From a virus: a stretch of DNA of 55,514 nucleotides. The DNA lies in IMG/VR virus record IMGVR_UViG_3300036766_001792, positions 1-55,514 of that record; one strand, written 5' to 3'. Below the pieces are notes generated by a model. The model saw nothing but the letters and a program-made list of their open reading frames with translations. It was not told where the DNA came from and did no database searches. Below are positions 4,273 through 53,601 of this stretch, piece by piece. A program made the position numbers and the translations under genes. Position 1 is the stretch's first letter. Every line of letters starts with the position of its first letter.

Positions 4273-5166
4273 TCAGTACTCCAGATCGCCGGTCCCGTAG
4301 ATGGTCCACCGCGCCATGTCGGGCCACATCGATACCTCCGGCGTCTGCTTGACGGCCGGTGGCCGGTCGAAGACCCTGAACGGCCGCCTGAGGTACCCGT
4401 AGTCCCGGTCGTACCCGATGTCCCGGTGCGCCGCCAGGAAGTCGATGTGCGCCCTCTCCCACCGCTCGACCAGCGCCCTCTGCCTCTCGCGCGGCATCGC
4501 AGCCAGGTCGTACCTGAGGGTCGCGCCCTCCTCGCCCGCTGCCGCCCCGTACCAGTCATGGAACGTCCCGTAGCCGCCCATCGTCTCGGGGTCCACGTAG
4601 TCGGATATGACGCCGCCGCGGCCGATCCTCATGACCTCCTTGTCCATCGCGTACTGCATCCCGGCTATGCGCTCGTCAACTTCGTCGTCCGGTATTGAGC
4701 GGACTGTCGGATCCCCGACCAGCACGTACGACCGGTCGTGGAACCACTCCACGGCCTGCTGCGTCTCGTGGGCCATCCTGCCCGCCAGCTCGTGCGGGAA
4801 CGTGGGGATGGCCAGGTTGTTGATCGGCACCCAGCACGCGCGCCAGTGCGAGTACAGCCCCTGCGCCGGGCGCCCGTCGAGCATGCCCGACAGCCGGTGC
4901 TTCTCGGCGTACATGACCAGCAGCTCCTCGGCGCGCGCCCTCACGGGATCCGGGTCGACCGGCATGTGCTTACGCGTCACAGCCGTCACCATCCCCGACC
5001 CCGGCGGCCTCGACAGCGAGTGGCGCCGATCCAGCAGGATCTGGACATCGGGCCCACGCGCCTGCTTCATGTAGGTGCACACCGGGCAGTTGAAGTACCC
5101 GGTGCCCTCCATGGGCCCGCGCGCCAAGGCCTCATACGACTCGTACGGCTCGTAGTCCTCCGTCAC
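4273..5166 (-). CDS. Hypothetical protein
   Basis: 297 residues if translation starts at GTG 5166, which overlaps the stop of the FmdB-like gene as GTGA and suggests coupling. An internal ATG at 5112 is an alternative. Residues about 25-30 hold CPVC. The remainder is rich in aromatic and charged residues, with HDWYG and a Tyr-rich C-terminus (YDRDYGYLRRPF). No family recognised. It lies among structural and chaperone genes, so a virion or assembly role is only a guess. Confidence 0.6.
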   Translation of the reverse strand: MTEDYEPYESYEALARGPMEGTGYFNCPVCTYMKQARGPDVQILLDRRHSLSRPPGSGMVTAVTRKHMPVDPDPVRARAEELLVMYAEKHRLSGMLDGRPAQGLYSHWRACWVPINNLAIPTFPHELAGRMAHETQQAVEWFHDRSYVLVGDPTVRSIPDDEVDERIAGMQYAMDKEVMRIGRGGVISDYVDPETMGGYGTFHDWYGAAAGEEGATLRYDLAAMPRERQRALVERWERAHIDFLAAHRDIGYDRDYGYLRRPFRVFDRPPAVKQTPEVSMWPDMARWTIYGTGDLEY

Positions 5167-5357
5167 CGCTGCCCACCATTCGTGCTCGAGCGCGTAAAGC
5201 CGCCGGCCTTGAAGATGGCCACCGGCGGGGACGTCGGCACCGGCATGCGCGCGGACATCTCGTGGCACTCCGGGCACTCGGCCTGCTTGACGTCCCACCC
5301 GGTCAGCTTGTCAAATACGCGCCCGCAGTTCGAGCACCTGAAGTCATAGATCGGCAT
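5163..5357 (-). CDS. FmdB-like zinc ribbon protein
   Basis: 64 residues from ATG 5357. It begins MPIYDFRCSNCGRVFDKL and continues with CPECHE about 20 residues later, the CxxC...CxxC knuckle of the FmdB-type zinc ribbon family, often annotated as putative regulators. The protein has the usual small size. The last 20 residues are variable. It overlaps both neighbours (13 bases upstream, GTGA downstream), so it sits inside an operon. The actual role in phages is not established. Confidence 0.8.
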   Translation of the reverse strand: MPIYDFRCSNCGRVFDKLTGWDVKQAECPECHEMSARMPVPTSPPVAIFKAGGFTRSSTNGGQR

Positions 5358-19378: not shown

Positions 19379-19828
19379 CTATACGCTGCCCGCCAGGACC
19401 TCGAGCACCGTCTCTGCGTCCTCGAGCGACTCGACGATGACGCTGGCCGACTGCTCGACGAACGCGTGGCTGTGCAGCTTGTCGTCGTGCGCCATGACGA
19501 CGAGCACGAACTTCCCGAGCATGTATCCCCAGGCGAGCTCGAACATCGTCCCGATGCTTACGCGCTCGGCGCCCAGCAGGTTGGCCAGCACGACATCGGC
19601 GCGCTCGACGTCGAACGAGTCCCGGCGCACGAGCGCCTTGTCGGTCGATGTCGGGTTATCGTACCCGTGCGTCCGCAATCGCCTGATGCGCGACAGGAAC
19701 TCCTTGCCGCGCATCGGACTGTACACGTTGTACCCAAGCTCGAGCGCCCGCTCGGCGAACTTCTTGCGCCAGTCGGTCGCCCCCTTGTACGTGCAGCCCG
19801 CTATCGGGCCCGCCAAATAGATGTTCAT
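19379..19828 (-). CDS. Nucleoside deoxyribosyltransferase-like protein
   Basis: 149 residues from ATG 19828, with GAGGAG eight bases upstream. MNIYLAGPIAG at the start, RRDSFDVERADVVLANLLGA (about 68-87) and GTMFELAWGYML (about 93-104, with the family Glu) match the nucleoside 2-deoxyribosyltransferase fold. Enzymes here cut or swap the base of deoxynucleosides or nucleotides. It could serve base modification or salvage with the nearby thymidylate-type genes. It could also be a DNPH1-like hydrolase. Confidence 0.75.
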   Translation of the reverse strand: MNIYLAGPIAGCTYKGATDWRKKFAERALELGYNVYSPMRGKEFLSRIRRLRTHGYDNPTSTDKALVRRDSFDVERADVVLANLLGAERVSIGTMFELAWGYMLGKFVLVVMAHDDKLHSHAFVEQSASVIVESLEDAETVLEVLAGSV

Positions 19829-20108: not shown

Positions 20109-20990
20109 CTATACCCCCTCCCCTTTTAGCATCTCCCTGATGGCGGCCTCGAAGAACGCCGGCCACCGCTCGAAGATCTTCGGGACGTTGAGCATCAGTA
20201 CGTACTCTGCTTTCAAGCCGCACCGGTACGCCGAAAGCACGAGGGTCGCATACATCTGCAGTTCCTCGAGCGTCGCGCCCTCCGGCATCGGCGCGTCGTA
20301 GTCTGGCCACCTTCCGCCGTACTGCTCCGCGATCCTGGCGGCCTTCTCGTGGTTGGTGTCGTAGAGGTGCAGCGACCCGGCCACGTGCGTGTACTGCCCG
20401 AGTCTCAGCCCCAAGTCGGTGGCGAGCGCCTCCTGCAGCACCGTGAACATCACGACGTCATACGGCCACCCCAGCCAGACGTCGTTGGACCTCATGTAGG
20501 TGATGAGCTCGAGCGCGCCGTCCCGCACCATGAAGTGCAGGCTGACTGTGCATGGCACGTCGCGCGACTCGCGGTGGTCGACCGGTCCGAAGATCGTGAT
20601 GACGGCCTGCCTGGTGTCCGGGTCGCGCCTCAGCAGATCCCTGACGTACGGCAGTTGCGGGCCGACGCGCGGGCCGTATGCGCCGTCGAGCTCGCCCGTC
20701 TCCTGGTTGACGAAGCCTGCGTATTGCGGCGCCGCTTTCACCAGCAGTCCCGGGTCGCTTACGCCGGCCAGGAGCATCAGCGCCTCGAGGTAGCCGAGCA
20801 GCTTAGACAGCTTGCGCTCCGGCACCTGGATCCACCTCGCGCGCGGATTCTCCAAGACGAGGGTCGCCGGTCGCAGCTCGACCGTACCAATCCCGCGTGG
20901 GCTCACCCTCTCGCCGCGCTCGACCAACGCCGCGAGAGCCCTGAGCCAGAGCTGCGTAGCGTCGGAGCCTACGAAAGTCTCAGGTTTCAC
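20109..20990 (-). CDS. Thymidylate synthase-family enzyme
   Basis: 293 residues from GTG 20990, with GAGGG five bases upstream. It shows the ThyA-type fold: DGAYGPRVGPQLPYV (about 103-117), DTRQAVITIFGP, SRDVPCTVSLHF with the catalytic Cys (about 147), then RSNDVWLGWPYDVVMF and the substrate-binding HVAGSLHLYDTNH. ThyA-family enzymes methylate dUMP, and phage relatives hydroxymethylate dUMP or dCMP. Sequence alone does not separate these. Asn in RSND and the neighbouring kinase and dUTPase leave a modified-pyrimidine pathway open. Confidence 0.82.
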   Translation of the reverse strand: MKPETFVGSDATQLWLRALAALVERGERVSPRGIGTVELRPATLVLENPRARWIQVPERKLSKLLGYLEALMLLAGVSDPGLLVKAAPQYAGFVNQETGELDGAYGPRVGPQLPYVRDLLRRDPDTRQAVITIFGPVDHRESRDVPCTVSLHFMVRDGALELITYMRSNDVWLGWPYDVVMFTVLQEALATDLGLRLGQYTHVAGSLHLYDTNHEKAARIAEQYGGRWPDYDAPMPEGATLEELQMYATLVLSAYRCGLKAEYVLMLNVPKIFERWPAFFEAAIREMLKGEGV

Positions 20991-20992
20991 GC

Positions 20993-22054
20993 CTACCCTC
21001 CCTCATGGTTGACTATGCCGCAGAAGCCGCATTGCCCCTCTTCCCACGGCCGGGCGCCGCTGATGGCAGCACCATACCTGGCGACGTCCTTGTAGTGGGA
21101 CCGCCGCACGTGCGACAGGCTCGGCACCATCCTGTAGCCGTATGCCGCCTCGACACTCGACAACTCGGCCGCCGCGTTCCGCCCGAGCGCGACCACGTCG
21201 AGTCCCAGCCTCGACGACGGCGACAGCAGCTTGTCCGGCAGATCCAGCGAATATGTGGCCAGAGTCCGCTCGTCGCCCTGCACCGAGTTAAACAGGCAGA
21301 TGTCGCCGAGCTTGAGCCCGGCGGCCTTCAGCGCCATATACAGATACCGGTCCGACTCCGCGTCCAGCGCGAGGCCGGTCGACCGCCTGCTGACCCGCTC
21401 CATGAAGCGCTGCCCGCGGCCCCTTGCCAGGGCGCGCCCGTACCAGTGCGGCCTGTCCGCGACCAGCACCAGGCTGGGGTCAACCGTGTTGCCGAGGGCG
21501 TCGAACTCCGGCAGGCCGGACCGCCTCCTGTGCATGCTGTAGAGCATGGACTCGGCGTAAGCCGCGGCGGCATCGAAGACGTGGCCGCAGCTCGTGTAGT
21601 CGTACCGCACGGACAGCAGCTCGGTCGTCTTGATCTTCTCCTCGTAGAGGCGTCTGACCTCCGCCCGCTTGCCGGGGTCCTCGTAGATCACCGCGTCCGC
21701 GTTGTTGGGTCCGCGCGCGAGGTTGCGGTCCACGACTTCTGGCGGGACCGTGCAGTGGACGAGTAGCGCGCCATGCGCCCAGAGGAAACCCTCGAGCAGC
21801 CACTCCTCGAACTCCGTCAAATCTGGCGTGTTGCGGAAAGCGAGCCCGTAGCAGTAGCTCCCGAGGTGCAGCCTGTCGACCACGGCCGGCCCCTCGACGG
21901 ATCGCAGCGTCTGGAGGTAGTACTCGAGCGCCGGCCTGTCCGGCGGCCCACAATGCGCGTAGCTGGCGCCAGTCCGCCTCATGATCTCCTCGGCCAGCGT
22001 CGTCTTGCCGGTCCCGTCAGCCCCCTCGAGCACGATGTAAGGCCCGTATCTCAC
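20993..22054 (-). CDS. dNMP (thymidylate-like) kinase fused to UDG-like domain
   Basis: 353 residues from GTG 22054, overlapping the upstream stop as GTGA. Residues 1-180 are a P-loop kinase: GADGTGKTT (11-19), VVDRLHLG with the DR motif, and a LID-like RNLARGPNNADAV. Residues about 195-345 look like the uracil-DNA-glycosylase fold: VLVADRPHWYG in place of the GEaPG strand, DICLFNSVQGDE, VVALGRNAAAEL, and VPSLSHVRR in the HPS position. Catalytic residues of typical UDGs are not clearly kept. It would phosphorylate dTMP or a modified dNMP. The second domain's role is unknown. Confidence 0.75.
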   Translation of the reverse strand: MRYGPYIVLEGADGTGKTTLAEEIMRRTGASYAHCGPPDRPALEYYLQTLRSVEGPAVVDRLHLGSYCYGLAFRNTPDLTEFEEWLLEGFLWAHGALLVHCTVPPEVVDRNLARGPNNADAVIYEDPGKRAEVRRLYEEKIKTTELLSVRYDYTSCGHVFDAAAAYAESMLYSMHRRRSGLPEFDALGNTVDPSLVLVADRPHWYGRALARGRGQRFMERVSRRSTGLALDAESDRYLYMALKAAGLKLGDICLFNSVQGDERTLATYSLDLPDKLLSPSSRLGLDVVALGRNAAAELSSVEAAYGYRMVPSLSHVRRSHYKDVARYGAAISGARPWEEGQCGFCGIVNHEGG

Positions 22055-22356
22055 GCGTTCCCTCCTACATTATGATACCCGCGCGGCCCGCTGAGCAGCT
22101 CGTATCCCCTGTGCCCGCCGGACACCAGTCGCCGAAGCAGAATCTTCGTGCGCCGGTTCGTGGCCAGGCGGAGGACGACGGCATGCGTCATGCCCCGCAG
22201 CGGCCGATCGTCCCGGAAATAGGCCCAGGCCGGCTCGTCGGCGTAGCCGAACCCCACGACCTCGAACTCGCCCTTGCCGTAGCCGCGGTCGTCATTGTCC
22301 CGCCACACCTGGCCGCGCCTGACATCGGTATCGCGGTAGATGCTGGGCTCACCCAT
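22051..22356 (-). CDS. Conserved small phage protein
   Basis: 101 residues from ATG 22356, with AGGAGG ten bases upstream. It opens with YRDTDVRRGQVWRDNDDRG, a pattern common at the start of small phage proteins of unknown function, and looks like a beta barrel. It ends in RGYHNVGGNA. It lies between the dUTPase and kinase genes and overlaps both. Confidence 0.6.
   Translation of the reverse strand: MGEPSIYRDTDVRRGQVWRDNDDRGYGKGEFEVVGFGYADEPAWAYFRDDRPLRGMTHAVVLRLATNRRTKILLRRLVSGGHRGYELLSGPRGYHNVGGNA
22072..22077 (-). promoter_or_regulatory. Promoter-like TATCAT element
   Basis: The minus strand reads GGGTATCATAATGTAGGAGG, about 20 bases before the kinase GTG. It lies inside the 3' end of the previous gene. 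It fits the GGTATNATA set but the coding context makes it weaker. Confidence 0.25.
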
Positions 22357-22814
22357 CAGTACCCGTCCTCCTGTCGCTTCTTGTTGACGGCGGCCTTCGC
22401 GAGATAGAGCGCGCCCAGGTCGTACTCCGACTCCACCTCAATGATCAGGAGCGCCTCCAGCAGGAAGTGCAGGATGTCGACCAGCTCCTCGATGACGCCG
22501 GCCTCCTCCTCGTCGGTTAGCTCGCGGCCGTAGTCGCCCTTCCACCGCTTCCACGGCAGCCATGCCTTCAGCTCCGACGCCTCCATCATGATAGCGTCGG
22601 CCATCTCGACGAGTCGCAGCGATGCCGGAAGATCCGACTCGCCCAGCCGCTCCTGTATCGCGTCGAGGACGCTCCGCTGCTCGTCGAGTATGATCTGCAG
22701 AACCCCGTCCCTCGGTGGCCACACGGCGTGCGCGCCCTGCAGCCTGTGCTTGAGCAGCATCAGCCCGCCGTCGTAGTCGAGCTCCCCATGACTCTCCCTC
22801 AACCGGTCACCCAT
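22356..22814 (-). CDS. All-alpha dimeric dUTPase/NTP pyrophosphohydrolase
   Basis: 152 residues from ATG 22814. The metal motif MEASELKAWLPWKRWKG (about 76-92), EELVDILHFLLEAL (about 108-121), and the end YLAKAAVNKKRQEDGY (about 137-152) match the dimeric dUTPase family of the MazG-like fold. It hydrolyses dUTP (or dCTP in some members) to the monophosphate. This lowers uracil in DNA and supplies dUMP for the thymidylate-type synthase encoded nearby. Confidence 0.88.
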   Translation of the reverse strand: MGDRLRESHGELDYDGGLMLLKHRLQGAHAVWPPRDGVLQIILDEQRSVLDAIQERLGESDLPASLRLVEMADAIMMEASELKAWLPWKRWKGDYGRELTDEEEAGVIEELVDILHFLLEALLIIEVESEYDLGALYLAKAAVNKKRQEDGY

Positions 22815-23185
22815 CTGCCGCGTGCCCTCCTCTCCTCCGTGTCCTCCGAATGCGAATCGACGAACTCGTGTATCCGCATGTTCAAAGCAGGTCTATTGGC
22901 CGCCTTGAGCTCCAGCTCGCTGACCCGCAGGATCGGGATCCCGGCGTTGACCAGTATCCAGATGTCCCGCTCGGCGTCGCGCTTCCGCTTCCGCGGCCCT
23001 GCGTGCGCCGCCTTGCCGTCTGCCTCCAGGCCGACCCAGAGCTCGTCCACCAGGACGTCGAGCACGTACCACCCGACCCTGACCTCGGCCCGCACCTCCA
23101 GCCCCATACCCCTCAGCAGGTCCATGAGGCGCCTGTGCGGCCGCGTCAGCGCAGTCTGCGGCGGCTCACGGTCCCAGACGGGCAT
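22799..23185 (-). CDS. Vsr-fold/DUF559-like endonuclease
   Basis: 128 residues from ATG 23185. It has the short Vsr/DUF559 fold: GLEVRAEVRVGWYVLDVLVD (core Asp near residue 43), LWVGLEADGKAAH (about 49-61), and ERDIWILVNAGIPILRVSELEL (about 71-92). Proteins of this type act as nicking or homing endonucleases. It overlaps the dUTPase start by 16 bases. Whether it is a homing enzyme or part of DNA metabolism cannot be told from sequence. Confidence 0.7.
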   Translation of the reverse strand: MPVWDREPPQTALTRPHRRLMDLLRGMGLEVRAEVRVGWYVLDVLVDELWVGLEADGKAAHAGPRKRKRDAERDIWILVNAGIPILRVSELELKAANRPALNMRIHEFVDSHSEDTEERRARGRWVTG

Positions 23186-27402: not shown

Positions 27403-28365
27403 CTATTTCGGGAACCCGACAGCCGCCACATCGACCGCCTGGGACACCACGACCTTCAGCTCTATGCACCCGCACTCCTGGACGTCCTTCTTGCCTGGCG
27501 GCAGGATGGCCGCCCTGACGCGCATCCTGTGGCCGAGCAGCCTCGCGGCCTGCGCCATGCCCCTCTGGCCCGCCTCGTCCATGTCGAGCGCGAGCACGAC
27601 CCCCCTCGTGCGTCCGGCGAGGAGCGACGCCTGCACCCTCGAGATCTGCGCCCCGAGCAGGGCGACCCCGGGTATCCCGCACTGCCACAGCCACATGGCG
27701 TCCAACGGCCCCTCGACGAGCACTATCTCGTCCGGCGCGTCCGGCATCATGTCCCAGCCGAACAGCACCTCGCCCGCCTTGAGGCCGGCCGTGTAGACGT
27801 ACTTGGGCGACGCGAGCGGGTTGACGTACCGGTACACCAGCCCCTCTATCCTGCCGCGGAACGTGATCGGCATCACGACGGCTGCCCGCGCCTTGTCCAT
27901 CCCCACGTCCCACGCCCTCAGCGTCGCGGGCTCGAACCCCCGCCCCTCCATGTACTTGTACGTCCGCCCGTGCTCGTACTCCGGCATCGCCGGCGGCGCC
28001 TCCGCCACGGCGGCGCCCGTACCGGCTATGGCCTTCCTCAGGGCGTCGTTGCCCGGGTCCGGCGCCTTGACCGACCCGAGCCAGACGTCGGCCTCGGCCT
28101 CCGTTATCCCCTTGACCCTCGCAACGAGCTCGGCGAGGCGGCCGACCCCGCAGCTGGCGTAGCACACCCAATAGCCGTTCTCGATGGCGACGGCGAACGA
28201 CGGGTCGTGGTCGTCGTGGAATGGGCAGAGGCACATCGCCCACGGGTCGCGCTTCTTCTGCTCAACGCGCACGACCTCGATGCCGAGCGTCTCGAGGACC
28301 GCGAGGACGTCGGGCCCTGACGACGCCGCCACCAGCTTGCGCAGCCTGTCGGCCCCGCTAGCCAC
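27403..28365 (-). CDS. DnaG-like DNA primase
   Basis: 320 residues from GTG 28365, with GAGG upstream. The CHC2-type zinc finger is CPFHDDHDPSFAV followed by WVCYASCGVG (C47, H50, C68, C73-region). A helical linker follows. The TOPRIM catalytic part has VLVEGPLDAMWLWQ (about 214-227) and LALDMDEAGQRG (about 256-267). It makes RNA primers for lagging-strand synthesis with the DnaB-like helicase encoded about 1.2 kb upstream. It is compact and lacks a long helicase-binding C-terminus. Confidence 0.88.
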   Translation of the reverse strand: MASGADRLRKLVAASSGPDVLAVLETLGIEVVRVEQKKRDPWAMCLCPFHDDHDPSFAVAIENGYWVCYASCGVGRLAELVARVKGITEAEADVWLGSVKAPDPGNDALRKAIAGTGAAVAEAPPAMPEYEHGRTYKYMEGRGFEPATLRAWDVGMDKARAAVVMPITFRGRIEGLVYRYVNPLASPKYVYTAGLKAGEVLFGWDMMPDAPDEIVLVEGPLDAMWLWQCGIPGVALLGAQISRVQASLLAGRTRGVVLALDMDEAGQRGMAQAARLLGHRMRVRAAILPPGKKDVQECGCIELKVVVSQAVDVAAVGFPK

Positions 28366-28783
28366 GTCGCAACCTCGGCGGACCCAGCGCCGCCGCCAGC
28401 TTCAGCAGCTTGCCCCTGTCCTTCACCTCGCACTCCCAGATCACGTGCACCGTCCAGCCGAGCGCCCTGAGCTCGGCCGCGACCCGCGCGTCGCGCTCGA
28501 CGTTCCTCTCGAACTTCTCCTCCCAGAACCTGATGTTGGACGCGACCCCCTTCTTGTGCGTATGAACCGGGCACCTGTGCCAGAAGTCTCCGTGCACGAA
28601 GACCGCGTGCCTCCTGGCGCGGAAGCAGATGTCGGGCTTGCCCGGGAGGTCGGCGCAGCACACCCGGAAGCGGTAGCCCCACGCGTGCAGCGCACGCCTG
28701 ACCGCCAGCTCCGGGCCGGTGTCGCGCCCGCGTATGCGCGACATCATCCTGCTCCTCACCGCCTGGCTGACCCGATCCGCCAC
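28358..28783 (-). CDS. Vsr-type mismatch endonuclease
   Basis: 141 residues from GTG 28783, with GAGGAGGG six bases upstream. It matches Vsr: MSRIRGRDTGPELAVRRAL (about 14-32), then DLPGKPDICFRARRHAVF with the catalytic Asp, and VHGDFWHRCP with the second metal and zinc residues. Vsr nicks next to T:G mismatches left by deamination of 5-methylcytosine. Phage copies often belong to DNA-modification loci or act as homing enzymes. A DPPW methyltransferase is encoded at 35781-36434. Confidence 0.87.
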   Translation of the reverse strand: MADRVSQAVRSRMMSRIRGRDTGPELAVRRALHAWGYRFRVCCADLPGKPDICFRARRHAVFVHGDFWHRCPVHTHKKGVASNIRFWEEKFERNVERDARVAAELRALGWTVHVIWECEVKDRGKLLKLAAALGPPRLRRG

Positions 28784-33132: not shown

Positions 33133-33148
33133 GCCGCCATGCGGCGGC
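33133..33148 (-). terminator. GC hairpin after the polymerase stop
   Basis: GCCGCC, loop GCAT, GGCGGC directly follows the TAG of the polymerase gene on the minus strand. It is a perfect 6-bp stem with no T-run behind it. It may mark the end of the polymerase transcript. Confidence 0.35.
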
Positions 33149-35787
33149 TACGCGGCCTTCGCCACCCACGGCTCGCACTCGCCCCAATGGGTGCCGACCT
33201 TCACGTCGGCGACCAGCGGGACGGTGAACTCCAGCCCGAACCGCTCGCGCAGCTCCGGATACTCCATGACCCTCTTTATAACGGGCACCCACTTGTCGAC
33301 CAGGTCCTCCCTGACCTCGAACAGTATCGAGTCGTGGACCTCGCCGACCATCCTGCACTCGTCCCAGTCGAGCTCGAGCCCGAAGATGCCCTCGGACGTC
33401 AGCGTCAGGTCGCCGCCGAACCCCTGCACCGGCGAGTTTATAGACTGCCGCTCCGCCTCGGCGCGCAGACCCTCGTCGACCGACATGATGGTCGCCAGGT
33501 GCCGCAGCCGGCCGGCCGGGTCCCTGACCTCCAGCGCCTTCCGCAGGATCGCCTTCTGGCGCGTGTGCCACGGCAGCAGCTCGCGGTACAGGCCGAAGAA
33601 CATGGCCCGGAACGCCTGGGCCTCATCGAGCGTGACGGTCAGCCCATACTTCTCCTTCGCGTATATCTGGAACCCCTTGGCGCCCATGCCGAAGAGGAAC
33701 CCGAAGTTAACTGCCTTGGCCATGTCCCTCTCGACCTTGGTTACCGCCGCCTCGATGGCCGCCATGAAGCCGTCGTTGTGGAGCAGATCCTCTATGCCCT
33801 GTCCCGCCAGGCCGAACTGGTCGACGAGCCTCCCGAACTTGCCGGTCACCTGCGCCGCCGTCAGGGCGTGGATGTCCCGCCCCAGCTGGAACGCCAGCAG
33901 CATGACCGGGTCGCCGGACAGGAACGCCGCGATGCGCAGTTCGACCTGCGAGTAGTCGACGTCGATGAACCTCCACCCCGGCGGCGCGCCAAAGATGGAC
34001 TTCAGGTATACCTCCCGCGGCACCTGGTGCAGGTTCGGCGTGGCGCAGCTCCTCCGGCCGGTCACGGTGCCCACCATGTTGAAGAACGGGTGCAGCCTGC
34101 CGTCGGGCCCGAGGAACTCCTTCCACTGGTTGAAGAACGTGATCTGCTTCTCGGCGTGCCTGAGAATCAGCACGAGGTCGACCGCCGGGTGCTGGCCGGC
34201 GAGCTCGTCGAGCGCGTTCTTGTCGGTCGCCGGCGCCCTCTTCTTCGGCGTCAGCTTGTGCGCCTTGACCCCGAGGCCCCCTTCCCCGAACAGCCAGTTG
34301 AGGAGGAACGTCGAGCTCGACCCGAACGGGTGCCCGAGCTTCGACTTCGCCCCCTGGGACTCCGCGTCACCGAGCATCGCCGGCGGCACGAAGTCGTACA
34401 GCTTCTCGACCGTCTCCGCCACGAGCACCTTTACCTCGCCCTCGCGCGCCTCCAACCGCTCCTGGTCGAGCCAGATGCCGTGCACCTCCGCCTTGCAGAG
34501 CGCGGCCGCCCCCGGGAGGCAGGCGTACTTGTACAGCCTGGCGAGCTGTTGGTCCGCACCGAGCCTCTCGCGGAACTTCATGTACAGCCCTTGCGTGTGC
34601 GCGACGTCAACGCCAGAGTAGACGGCCATCTTCTCAAGCGGATCGGGCGGATCGAACTTGATCTTGCCCTTGCCCCAGCGCGACGCGCCGAGCTCGGAGA
34701 CCGCCAGATCCTCGAGGTTTATCGGCCTGTTCTCGTCCAGCAGGTGGGCCGCGATGGCCGTGTCGAACCAGACGTTCGGCGTGATGCTGCGGCGGTACGT
34801 CCACCGCGAGTCGAACTTGGCGTTGTGCCACACCGTCTTGCCGCCCTCGAGCAGCGCGCCGATGCGGGCCCACAGGTCGCGCAGGTACGACTCGTGCCCG
34901 ACCCACGGCGACTCCGGGTGCTCGAGCGGGATGACGAAGCCGAGCTGCGGGTCGTCCGACAGCGCGAGCATCCATATCCTGGCGCCGGTCCTGAAGTCGA
35001 AGAAGCCCTGGGTCTCGAGGTCGCAGCTGAACGGATGGTCGGCCTGCTCGAACCTCGCGAGGCAGAGGTCCACCTCCTCGCGCGTCATGCAGATCCTAAC
35101 CTCAGGGTCGGCTGGCGGCGCCTCCCCGCGAAGCCTGCGCACGAACCTTCCGACGTCGCCGTAGAAGTTGTCGTGGCCGTTGGGGTGCTCGAGGACCCAC
35201 GACGGGTGCATCGACACGATGACCCACGCCTTGAGGTCCTCGTCGAAATACTCCTGCCCCCGGGCCGACGTCACGGCCTCCTTGCCGGTGATGGCCTTGA
35301 GCGCCGGGGCGCCCATGAGGAGGATGACCTTTGGCTTCACGGCCTCGATCTCCCGCCTGAGGTAGACGCCGCAGGGCTTGATCGCCTTCTTGATGTCCGC
35401 GTCCCTGTTGCCGGCGGCCGGCGGAGCGCACTTGACGGCGCTCGTCACGTAGACGTCGTCGCGCGCGACCCCGGCGTCGGCGAGTATCTCGTCTAGGTAT
35501 ATTCCGGGCTCGTTGCGCAGCGGGCTCCCGACCCGGTCGTCGACCAGTCCCGGGGCCGAGCCGATGATCATCCCGTCGGCAGGTACCGGCCCGTCGCCCA
35601 TCATGCAGACGCTGAGAACCCCCTGCGACAGTGGGCACGCCTCACATCGCGGGTTGCGCACGCCCCGCCGCAGCGCGGCAGCGCCCGGAGTCAGGGGAGG
35701 CACGTCATCCGCCTCCAGATTCCGGACGTCGTTCAGCTGCCTGTCTGTCCGCGGCTTGTAGCGCGGAGCCTCGCCGTCATTCACCAT
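33148..35787 (-). CDS. DNA polymerase I with N-terminal family-4 UDG domain
   Basis: 879 residues from ATG 35787, overlapping the methyltransferase stop. Residues 40-200 match family-4 UDG with the iron-sulfur Cys set C48, C51, C120, C139, IIGSAPG (74-80, Ser where catalytic Glu is usual) and MHPSW (193-197). The 3'-5' exonuclease has DLE (D256, E258), HNAKFD (321-326) and YSGVD (390-394). Pol motif A is DYSQVELR (611-618), motif B has R687, K691 and NFG (694-696), and motif C is VHDS (817-820). It is the replicative polymerase. At E. coli Tyr766 it has Phe699. Confidence 0.9.
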   Translation of the reverse strand: MVNDGEAPRYKPRTDRQLNDVRNLEADDVPPLTPGAAALRRGVRNPRCEACPLSQGVLSVCMMGDGPVPADGMIIGSAPGLVDDRVGSPLRNEPGIYLDEILADAGVARDDVYVTSAVKCAPPAAGNRDADIKKAIKPCGVYLRREIEAVKPKVILLMGAPALKAITGKEAVTSARGQEYFDEDLKAWVIVSMHPSWVLEHPNGHDNFYGDVGRFVRRLRGEAPPADPEVRICMTREEVDLCLARFEQADHPFSCDLETQGFFDFRTGARIWMLALSDDPQLGFVIPLEHPESPWVGHESYLRDLWARIGALLEGGKTVWHNAKFDSRWTYRRSITPNVWFDTAIAAHLLDENRPINLEDLAVSELGASRWGKGKIKFDPPDPLEKMAVYSGVDVAHTQGLYMKFRERLGADQQLARLYKYACLPGAAALCKAEVHGIWLDQERLEAREGEVKVLVAETVEKLYDFVPPAMLGDAESQGAKSKLGHPFGSSSTFLLNWLFGEGGLGVKAHKLTPKKRAPATDKNALDELAGQHPAVDLVLILRHAEKQITFFNQWKEFLGPDGRLHPFFNMVGTVTGRRSCATPNLHQVPREVYLKSIFGAPPGWRFIDVDYSQVELRIAAFLSGDPVMLLAFQLGRDIHALTAAQVTGKFGRLVDQFGLAGQGIEDLLHNDGFMAAIEAAVTKVERDMAKAVNFGFLFGMGAKGFQIYAKEKYGLTVTLDEAQAFRAMFFGLYRELLPWHTRQKAILRKALEVRDPAGRLRHLATIMSVDEGLRAEAERQSINSPVQGFGGDLTLTSEGIFGLELDWDECRMVGEVHDSILFEVREDLVDKWVPVIKRVMEYPELRERFGLEFTVPLVADVKVGTHWGECEPWVAKAA

Positions 35788-36434
35788 GCCATGATGTCCC
35801 CGCTGACAGTAACATACCCGTCCAGCCCGGCCTGCCCGAGTGGGTCCAGCCCCGCGAACGCGTCCAGGATGATGGCGCCCGGCGGCGTGCTCGCCCGGGC
35901 CAGCGCGGCGTAGATCTCCGGCGGCTTGCGCGACCCGCCGATCGGCGGGGCGAAGAACACGGTCGGGATAGACTTGGTCGTGAGCGGCCTCCTGCGCGTC
36001 TTCACCGGCTTGCCCGCCATCTCGGCGCTGACGTCGTCGTACGACCGCCGCCAGAAGCACACGATGAACTCGTGCGCGACGCGGTACGAATGCCCGAGCC
36101 CGATCCTCAGGTCGGTCCCGTCCTTGCGCGTCTTCACCCAGACGAGAGTGTGGAAGTGCTCCAGCATCAGGGGGTAGTTGCCGAGCAGCCAGCCGAGCTT
36201 CTGCTCGGGGCAGAACACGTAGAGGTGCGCGCCCGGCTTGAGGACCCTGCACGCCTCGGCGATCGCCGCCTGCATCTGATGGTCCTCCAGGATGGGGTAG
36301 TCGGTCGCTTTGACGGCCTTCGCCCTCGCGCTAACGCGCCGGTCGAAGTGCCACGGCGGGTCCGTGATTATCGTATCAATGACTTCATCGGAGAACGGTA
36401 GTCGCAATGCGTCGAGCTTAACTCTTGTGTGCAT
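35781..36434 (-). CDS. DPPW-type DNA methyltransferase
   Basis: 217 residues from ATG 36434. IITDPPWHFDRR (residues 22-33) is the catalytic motif IV of amino-methyltransferases. Motif I is near the C-terminus as ILDAFAGLDPLGQAGL (about 188-203), the circular order of the beta/MT-A70-like group. It would methylate adenine N6 or cytosine N4 in phage or host DNA. No restriction partner lies beside it, so it is likely an orphan that masks phage DNA. Confidence 0.83.
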   Translation of the reverse strand: MHTRVKLDALRLPFSDEVIDTIITDPPWHFDRRVSARAKAVKATDYPILEDHQMQAAIAEACRVLKPGAHLYVFCPEQKLGWLLGNYPLMLEHFHTLVWVKTRKDGTDLRIGLGHSYRVAHEFIVCFWRRSYDDVSAEMAGKPVKTRRRPLTTKSIPTVFFAPPIGGSRKPPEIYAALARASTPPGAIILDAFAGLDPLGQAGLDGYVTVSGDIMAW

Positions 36435-52977: not shown

Positions 52978-53601
52978 CTACTTCCCCATGCCCTCAATCT
53001 TGTCTATCTTGTGCCAGAACCCTGGCCCCGGGTCACGTCCAACCGCGTAGTCGTTGAGCTCGCGCTCGCCGAAGCGTACGACCGTCAGGCCATAGTGCCC
53101 AGTCAGACACCCGTCCCTAATGCGGTCGCGCTGCTGAATCTCAGGCCGACTATGCCAGTAACTGCCGTCCGCCTCGACCGCCAACTTCAGGGCCGGCACA
53201 TAGGCGTCCACCAGGTACGTGTACCACGGGTGCTCGTCCAGCACCTCGTACCCCGGCAGGAGCGCCGGGAGCAGCGCCTCGCGGAGGATGCACTCGATTC
53301 CCGTTGGCCCTGACCGGTGGCGCGCAAGCCGGGTAGTTCGCGCTATATTTGCAATGACCTTCGGACTTGCCCTCATGGAAGCCCGGTGCTCCAGAGACTT
53401 TGGTCTCCCCGTCATGGTCGCGCTTGTAGCCGCATTATGCTCCGACGAGTGAGGTTTGCCAAGCAAACTAGCGCTAATGGCGGCGCCCGTCCGCGCGCGC
53501 CAGTCTGGATCCTGCCAGAACGCGAGCATGACCGCGCGATGCTTGGCCAAACACTCCGGGTCCTGCCAACCCCGCCTTGCGCCTGCACTTGTGCCACTCA
53601 T
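52978..53601 (-). CDS. Homing endonuclease, Vsr/EDxHD-like
   Basis: 207 residues from ATG 53601, with GGGGG eight bases upstream. The N-terminal half has repeated short DNA-binding modules (WQDPECLAKHRAVM, FWQDPDWRARTG, GKPHSSEHNAATSA, GRPKSLEHRASM), as in NUMOD-bearing homing enzymes. The C-terminal half is a Vsr-like nuclease: YLVDAYVPALKLAVEADG, then SYWHSR and LTVVRFGERELND. It lies between the chaperone and tape-measure genes. The fold class is judged by eye. Confidence 0.75.
   Translation of the reverse strand: MSGTSAGARRGWQDPECLAKHRAVMLAFWQDPDWRARTGAAISASLLGKPHSSEHNAATSATMTGRPKSLEHRASMRASPKVIANIARTTRLARHRSGPTGIECILREALLPALLPGYEVLDEHPWYTYLVDAYVPALKLAVEADGSYWHSRPEIQQRDRIRDGCLTGHYGLTVVRFGERELNDYAVGRDPGPGFWHKIDKIEGMGK

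Follow-up and report, generated by a model that had tools for sequence, protein, structure and literature searches.

A phage nucleotide kinase joined to a uracil-DNA-glycosylase-fold domain in a predicted cytosine-modification cassette

Phages that fully modify their cytosine must exclude both ordinary cytosine and uracil-type nucleotides from their DNA, and little is known about such policing of the nucleotide pool. One of the closest described systems is the 5-hydroxymethylcytosine pathway of phage T4, with its dCMP hydroxymethylase gp42 and kinase gp1. The kinase described here is likewise predicted to take the product of a dCMP-type thymidylate synthase (TS) homologue, and a pyrophosphatase is present in its cassette, whereas gp1 is of another kinase family and is not known to carry a uracil-DNA glycosylase (UDG) domain. 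An Asp at the position of residue 177 of E. coli TS marks cytosine-using enzymes such as T4 dCMP hydroxymethylase and MilA (PMC5175136), and MetaGPA has tied this residue to phage contigs with modified cytosine (PMC8670742). MilA acts on CMP for the antibiotic mildiomycin, in a pathway that also includes the hydroxymethyl-CMP N-glycosidase MilB (PMC5175136). For the glycosylase UdgX, roles have been assigned to E52 (motif A), F65 (stacking), N91 (base reading), H178 (motif B) and R184 (substrate phosphate) (PMC10359453, PMC10776899), and the mutation H178A abolishes activity (PMC10776899).

The gene studied here is located on a single IMG/VR virus record, 55,514 bases long and with 66% G+C, the whole of which is called the window. 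Its reading frame runs on the minus strand, as do all window features given below, from a GTG start at 22054 to a stop at 20993 (353 amino acids), and is coding, with G+C fractions of 0.65/0.48/0.89 at the three codon positions. The operon order is pyrophosphatase, small ORF, kinase-UDG gene, TS homologue and then a deoxyribosyltransferase-like gene. The pyrophosphatase (22356..22814; PF08761, E 3.4e-11) is of the all-alpha NTP type (dUTPase_2/MazG-like) and a candidate dCTP/dUTP pyrophosphatase, and the small protein of 101 amino acids (22051..22356) has no Pfam or PHROG match. Up to the TS homologue (20109..20990; Pfam PF00303, E 1.4e-19), a predicted dCMP hydroxymethylase, spacing is tight: the small gene overlaps both its neighbours by 1–4 bases, the kinase gene by 4, and the TS homologue starts 2 bases downstream of the latter. 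The nucleoside 2-deoxyribosyltransferase-like protein (about 19379..19828; PF05014, E 1.7e-11) is of a family that we take to include MilB and, by analogy, could be a dNMP N-glycosidase; as in the mildiomycin pathway, a MilA-like hydroxymethylase is thus followed by a deoxyribosyltransferase-family protein. No glycosyltransferase was found among the scanned window genes. Directly upstream of the pyrophosphatase, the operon carries a protein with a DUF559/MTES_1575 endonuclease fold (22799–23185), and a second such protein is encoded at 52978–53601.

Residues 1–180 (21515..22054) form a P-loop kinase of the TMP-kinase fold, with the P-loop EGADGTGKTT at residues 10–19 and a DR motif at 60–61. 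Structure comparison gave Z scores of 20.4 and 20.2 with YorR of SPbeta (3kb2/2axp) and of about 15 with TMP kinases, and PHROG 761, thymidylate kinase, is matched with E 4.8e-10, while a PDB sequence search with the single window protein yielded no significant match. Residues E10, G11, D13, G14, G16, K17, D60, R61 and Y69 are invariant in 41 aligned fusions, the signatures EG.DG.GK and DR among them. Fold, P-loop and DR motif are common to YorR and the thymidylate kinases, but those are single-domain proteins of about 170–210 amino acids, whereas the window protein has an added C-terminal domain.

This domain covers residues about 186–335 (21050..21499) and was assigned to the UDG superfamily by profile, Pfam, Foldseek and VIA comparisons. 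Because the C-terminal part of the single window sequence matches no Pfam or PHROG family, its identity becomes visible only to a family profile. The profile of 38 relatives (A3) matches the Thermus type-4 UDG 1ui0 with E 6.9e-5 and UdgX with about 1e-4, and 10 of the 38 members match Pfam PF03167 (UDG), the best with 1.1e-6. When an AlphaFold2 model of residues 180–353 (pLDDT 80.6, pTM 0.80) was compared with the PDB by Foldseek, the best 36 matches were family-4 UDGs and UdgX (probability 0.95–1.0) and the next two MUG; VIA gave Z scores reaching 9.7, with 131 residues aligned at 3.2 Å. Judged from this model, the domain is a true UDG-superfamily fold. It shares with family-4 UDG and UdgX the fold and the layout of the active site (acid, Phe, Asn, (His), Arg), but differs in being joined to a kinase, in having shortened loops and in the absence of the four Fe-S cysteines of family-4 UDG, for which the fused-family alignment contains no conserved Cys column; the window copy in addition lacks the motif-B His.

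The pocket columns of the fused family correspond to UdgX E52, F65, N91, H178 and R184, and are occupied by D/E in 39, F in 38, N in 40, H in 38 and R in 39 of the 41 aligned proteins. Retained in the window are the motif-A acid D200 (21455..21457), the stacking Phe F217, the base-reading Asn N256 (21287..21289) and the motif-B Arg R318, which equals the DNA-contacting Arg of UdgX. The motif-B His-Pro (HPx4R) is gone: S312 (21119..21121) takes the place of the His and residues 312–313 are SL (SLSHVRR). A relative with 88% identity (L001) has likewise lost this His (SPS), whereas a 56% relative (L007) retains HPQ. Comparison with the 88%-identical homologue gave dN 0.073, dS 0.347 and dN/dS of about 0.21 for the UDG domain, against 0.066, 0.356 and about 0.18 for the kinase. 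The UDG domain, like the kinase, is under purifying selection and retained for some role, and loss of the His in a domain so maintained points to base binding instead of excision in the window copy. Brig1, which excises glucosyl-hydroxymethylcytosine, carries a Glu at the base-reading site (PMC11078745), unlike the Asn found here; this mildly favours a uracil-type ligand for the fused domain, but an Asn with flipped amide can also pair with cytosine, so the assignment is a weak one. An earlier note on this DNA, made from the letters alone, had described a P-loop dNMP kinase followed by a UDG-like fold, quoting C-terminal motifs that are indeed present in the ORF. Both assignments are borne out, profile, Pfam and AlphaFold/Foldseek agreeing that the C-terminal part folds as a UDG and not as something unrelated. 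Its statement that standard catalytic residues are lacking applies to the motif-B His-Pro, but not to D200, F217, N256 and R318.

The most informative neighbour is the TS homologue, which is the immediate next gene in 37 of 40 fused loci. The window protein has the catalytic Cys as well as an Asp (Asp178) at the position of E. coli TS 177, and the same Asp occurs in all 72 TS homologues that were found, with or without a fused kinase nearby. The closest PDB relative of the window protein is the CMP 5-hydroxymethylase MilA (E 2.6e-38), the best TS following at 5.5e-20. MilA has Ala176 where the window protein has the Ser of its RS motif (RSND) (PMC5175136), which predicts a deoxy substrate for the latter. 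E. coli TS Trp80 aligns to a gap in nearly all TS homologues, which we read as an indication of hydroxymethylases and not methylases. The TS homologue at 4505–5293 of a 148-kb contig (L034), alone among those compared, combines Asp177 with Trp80, making it a candidate true dCMP methylase instead of a hydroxymethylase. Recurrent neighbours across the loci, named by eye from sequence and annotated members, are dCMP deaminase, pyrophosphatases, and SAM-methyltransferase-like and glycosyltransferase-like proteins; 19 of the unfused kinases still directly precede a dCMP-type enzyme. Because an Asp-type TS homologue is adjacent and recurs in all equivalents, the special substrate to be expected is a 5-modified dCMP and not hydroxymethyl-dUMP. 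The link to a non-standard dNMP proposed in the earlier note is thereby upheld, the surroundings not being those of an ordinary dTMP kinase, whereas its thymidylate-type reading of the kinase is probably wrong.

The architecture is recurrent. An alignment search of viral contigs yielded 80 loci. Among 84 related kinases, near-duplicates included, half (42) are long, with the UDG part at their C-terminus, and the other 42 are short; since two long sequences duplicate others, 40 distinct fused loci remain. PW916 and ctUtU524 are among the phages with the long form, and the fusion also occurs in AXL3 (gp29) and in Bacillus phage G (gp315); the fused kinases are annotated as thymidylate kinase or not at all. 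On a tree of the kinase domain, 14 changes are needed to explain the long/short label, and supported branches force at least 7 of them, so the UDG domain was gained or lost repeatedly; since half of the kinases also lack it, the pathway does not depend on it. The combination had been called new: the literature searched yielded no account of a kinase fused to a UDG domain, though one may exist elsewhere, and a cytosine-modification cassette with this addition to its kinase is apparently undescribed so far, but the arrangement is no singularity of the window.

Several gene-content correlates of the fusion were considered and rejected. None of 39 fused records encodes a trimeric dUTPase, against 11 of 39 unfused ones (Fisher p 1.9e-4), as if the domain substituted for a missing dUTPase, but the dUTPase-bearing phages belong to a small number of related clades and the test corrected for kinship is null. 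The same correction removed the significance of dCMP deaminase (33/40 fused, 20/39 unfused) and of a glycosyltransferase-like family (13/40 and 3/39), and no gene content that tracks the UDG domain was left after it. As for a separate UDG gene in the unfused phages, PF03167 matches none there, but it also misses most of the fused domains, so that its silence says little.

Stenotrophomonas phage AXL3 carries the same cassette and ties it directly to an experiment. Of 37 restriction enzymes, 35, each with G/C in its site, fail on AXL3 DNA; the two that cut, TasI and Tru1I, have sites made up of A/T alone (PMC7504290). This pattern shows an alteration at G or C, either of the two. In Bacillus phage G, gp315 was found by structure search, and the family profile covers both its domains (1.8e-35 at full length, 1.7e-8 for the C-terminal part alone). 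In the gp309–gp319 locus, gp315 lies 1.5 kb upstream of the TS homologue gp319, which by eye is of the Asp type; the dCMP deaminase gp317 lies in between and the alpha-glucosyltransferase gp313 close by, suggesting a glucosylated-cytosine pathway. In phages such as AXL3 and PW916, the annotations thymidylate kinase for the kinases, and deoxyuridylate hydroxymethyltransferase or thymidylate synthase for the TS homologues, probably mask roles in cytosine modification.

On balance, we consider it rather probable that the gene encodes the NMP kinase belonging to a phage cassette for cytosine replacement or decoration, with a UDG-fold domain that binds uracil-type nucleotides. The pyrophosphatase would trim dCTP to dCMP, which the enzyme resembling MilA and T4 gp42 would convert to 5-hydroxymethyl-dCMP or, less likely, 5-methyl-dCMP. 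The operon makes 5-hydroxymethyl- (or methyl-) dCMP the most likely substrate of the fused kinase, after which host NDP kinase would add the last phosphate, for use by the phage polymerase. The UDG-like domain would bind uracil-type nucleotides (dUMP, or hydroxymethyl-dUMP arising by deamination) near the kinase. In most relatives it may also cleave them, barring their entry into phage DNA, whereas the window copy without the catalytic His would most likely bind only, for holding or sensing. Architecture, fold, conservation, operon, the Asp177 signature and the G/C-specific restriction resistance of AXL3 are direct observations. From these we infer the kinase substrate, the modification chemistry and the job of the domain, which may be to edit or hold uracil-type nucleotides, to regulate or to dock. 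A recurrent kinase-UDG fusion with conserved base pocket points at policing of the nucleotide pool. In the strictest form of this idea, the protein has two active sites, a kinase for the modified cytosine precursor and a UDG-fold glycosylase that destroys uracil-type dNMPs before they are phosphorylated, the window copy being degenerate and binding-only; as such it is a doubtful proposition, but if true, it would be the nucleotide-pool counterpart of editing by aminoacyl-tRNA synthetases.

It could also be argued that the protein is an ordinary dTMP kinase that boosts dTTP supply, with a decaying or decorative tail that plays no role in nucleotide metabolism. The Pfam and PHROG names, the absence of the domain from half of the related kinases, the lost motif-B His of the window copy and the route assumed by the authors who described AXL3 (PMC7504290) agree with this, but the neighbouring TS homologue is of the dCMP and not the dUMP type in 72 of 72 cases, the UDG pocket residues are 93–98% conserved, selection on the domain (dN/dS) is close to that on the kinase, and AXL3 DNA is altered at G or C, which together make such an explanation unlikely. 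Very unlikely in our opinion is a kinase acting on DNA after replication, in which the UDG-like domain flips a hydroxymethylated base that the kinase then phosphorylates, in the manner of 5-hydroxymethyluridine DNA kinases. Such enzymes exist in phages (PMC7653180), UDG folds flip bases and the DNA-contacting Arg of UdgX is kept (R318, 39/41). Against this stand the retained TMP-kinase fold and DR motif, as well as the half of the set's kinases that have no such domain, including the 19 directly before a dCMP-type enzyme. The thymidine-hypermodifying phage M6 offers a contrast. Its gp54, annotated as terminase small subunit and which we take to be a 5-hydroxymethyluridine DNA kinase, matches the fused family with 12.3 bits in the P-loop region only and has no UDG domain; no fused kinase was found among the M6 genes searched, and by eye the M6 TS is of the Asn type.

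Finally, the domain might serve to dock the kinase, or tether it to DNA, at the replication fork, comparable to the UDG-like N-terminus of the window phage polymerase, from which the catalytic Glu and Asn are gone. Complexes that synthesise dNTPs are known in T4, which fits this proposal, but docking alone gives no reason to conserve a base pocket, and among 46 records searched UDG domains above the Pfam cut-off are limited to the window and the records of L001, L007 and L008, so that docking seems improbable as the explanation. Since no gene-content correlation survived correction for kinship, editing is not firmly ranked above it, and the reading we prefer remains a cytosine-pathway kinase with a domain for binding uracil-type nucleotides.

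The window phage has a further UDG fold, altered in another way. In its family-A DNA polymerase (33148–36252), the N-terminal family-4-like UDG domain (35176–35598; Pfam E 6e-25) has GSAPG and TSAVKC in place of GEAPG and TN, while Cys residues and HPS are kept; UDG domains occur in similar long frames in L001 and L007. We take this polymerase to be similar to the SPO1-type DNA polymerase with its N-terminal UDG domain, in which, as in the window kinase, a UDG fold is fused to a phage enzyme that encounters modified nucleotides, the partner enzyme being a different one. A Vsr mismatch endonuclease is encoded at 28358–28783 (PF03852, E 1.7e-23). Bacterial Vsr repairs T:G mismatches arising from deaminated 5-methylcytosine, and the window enzyme could suit a genome with 5-modified cytosine.
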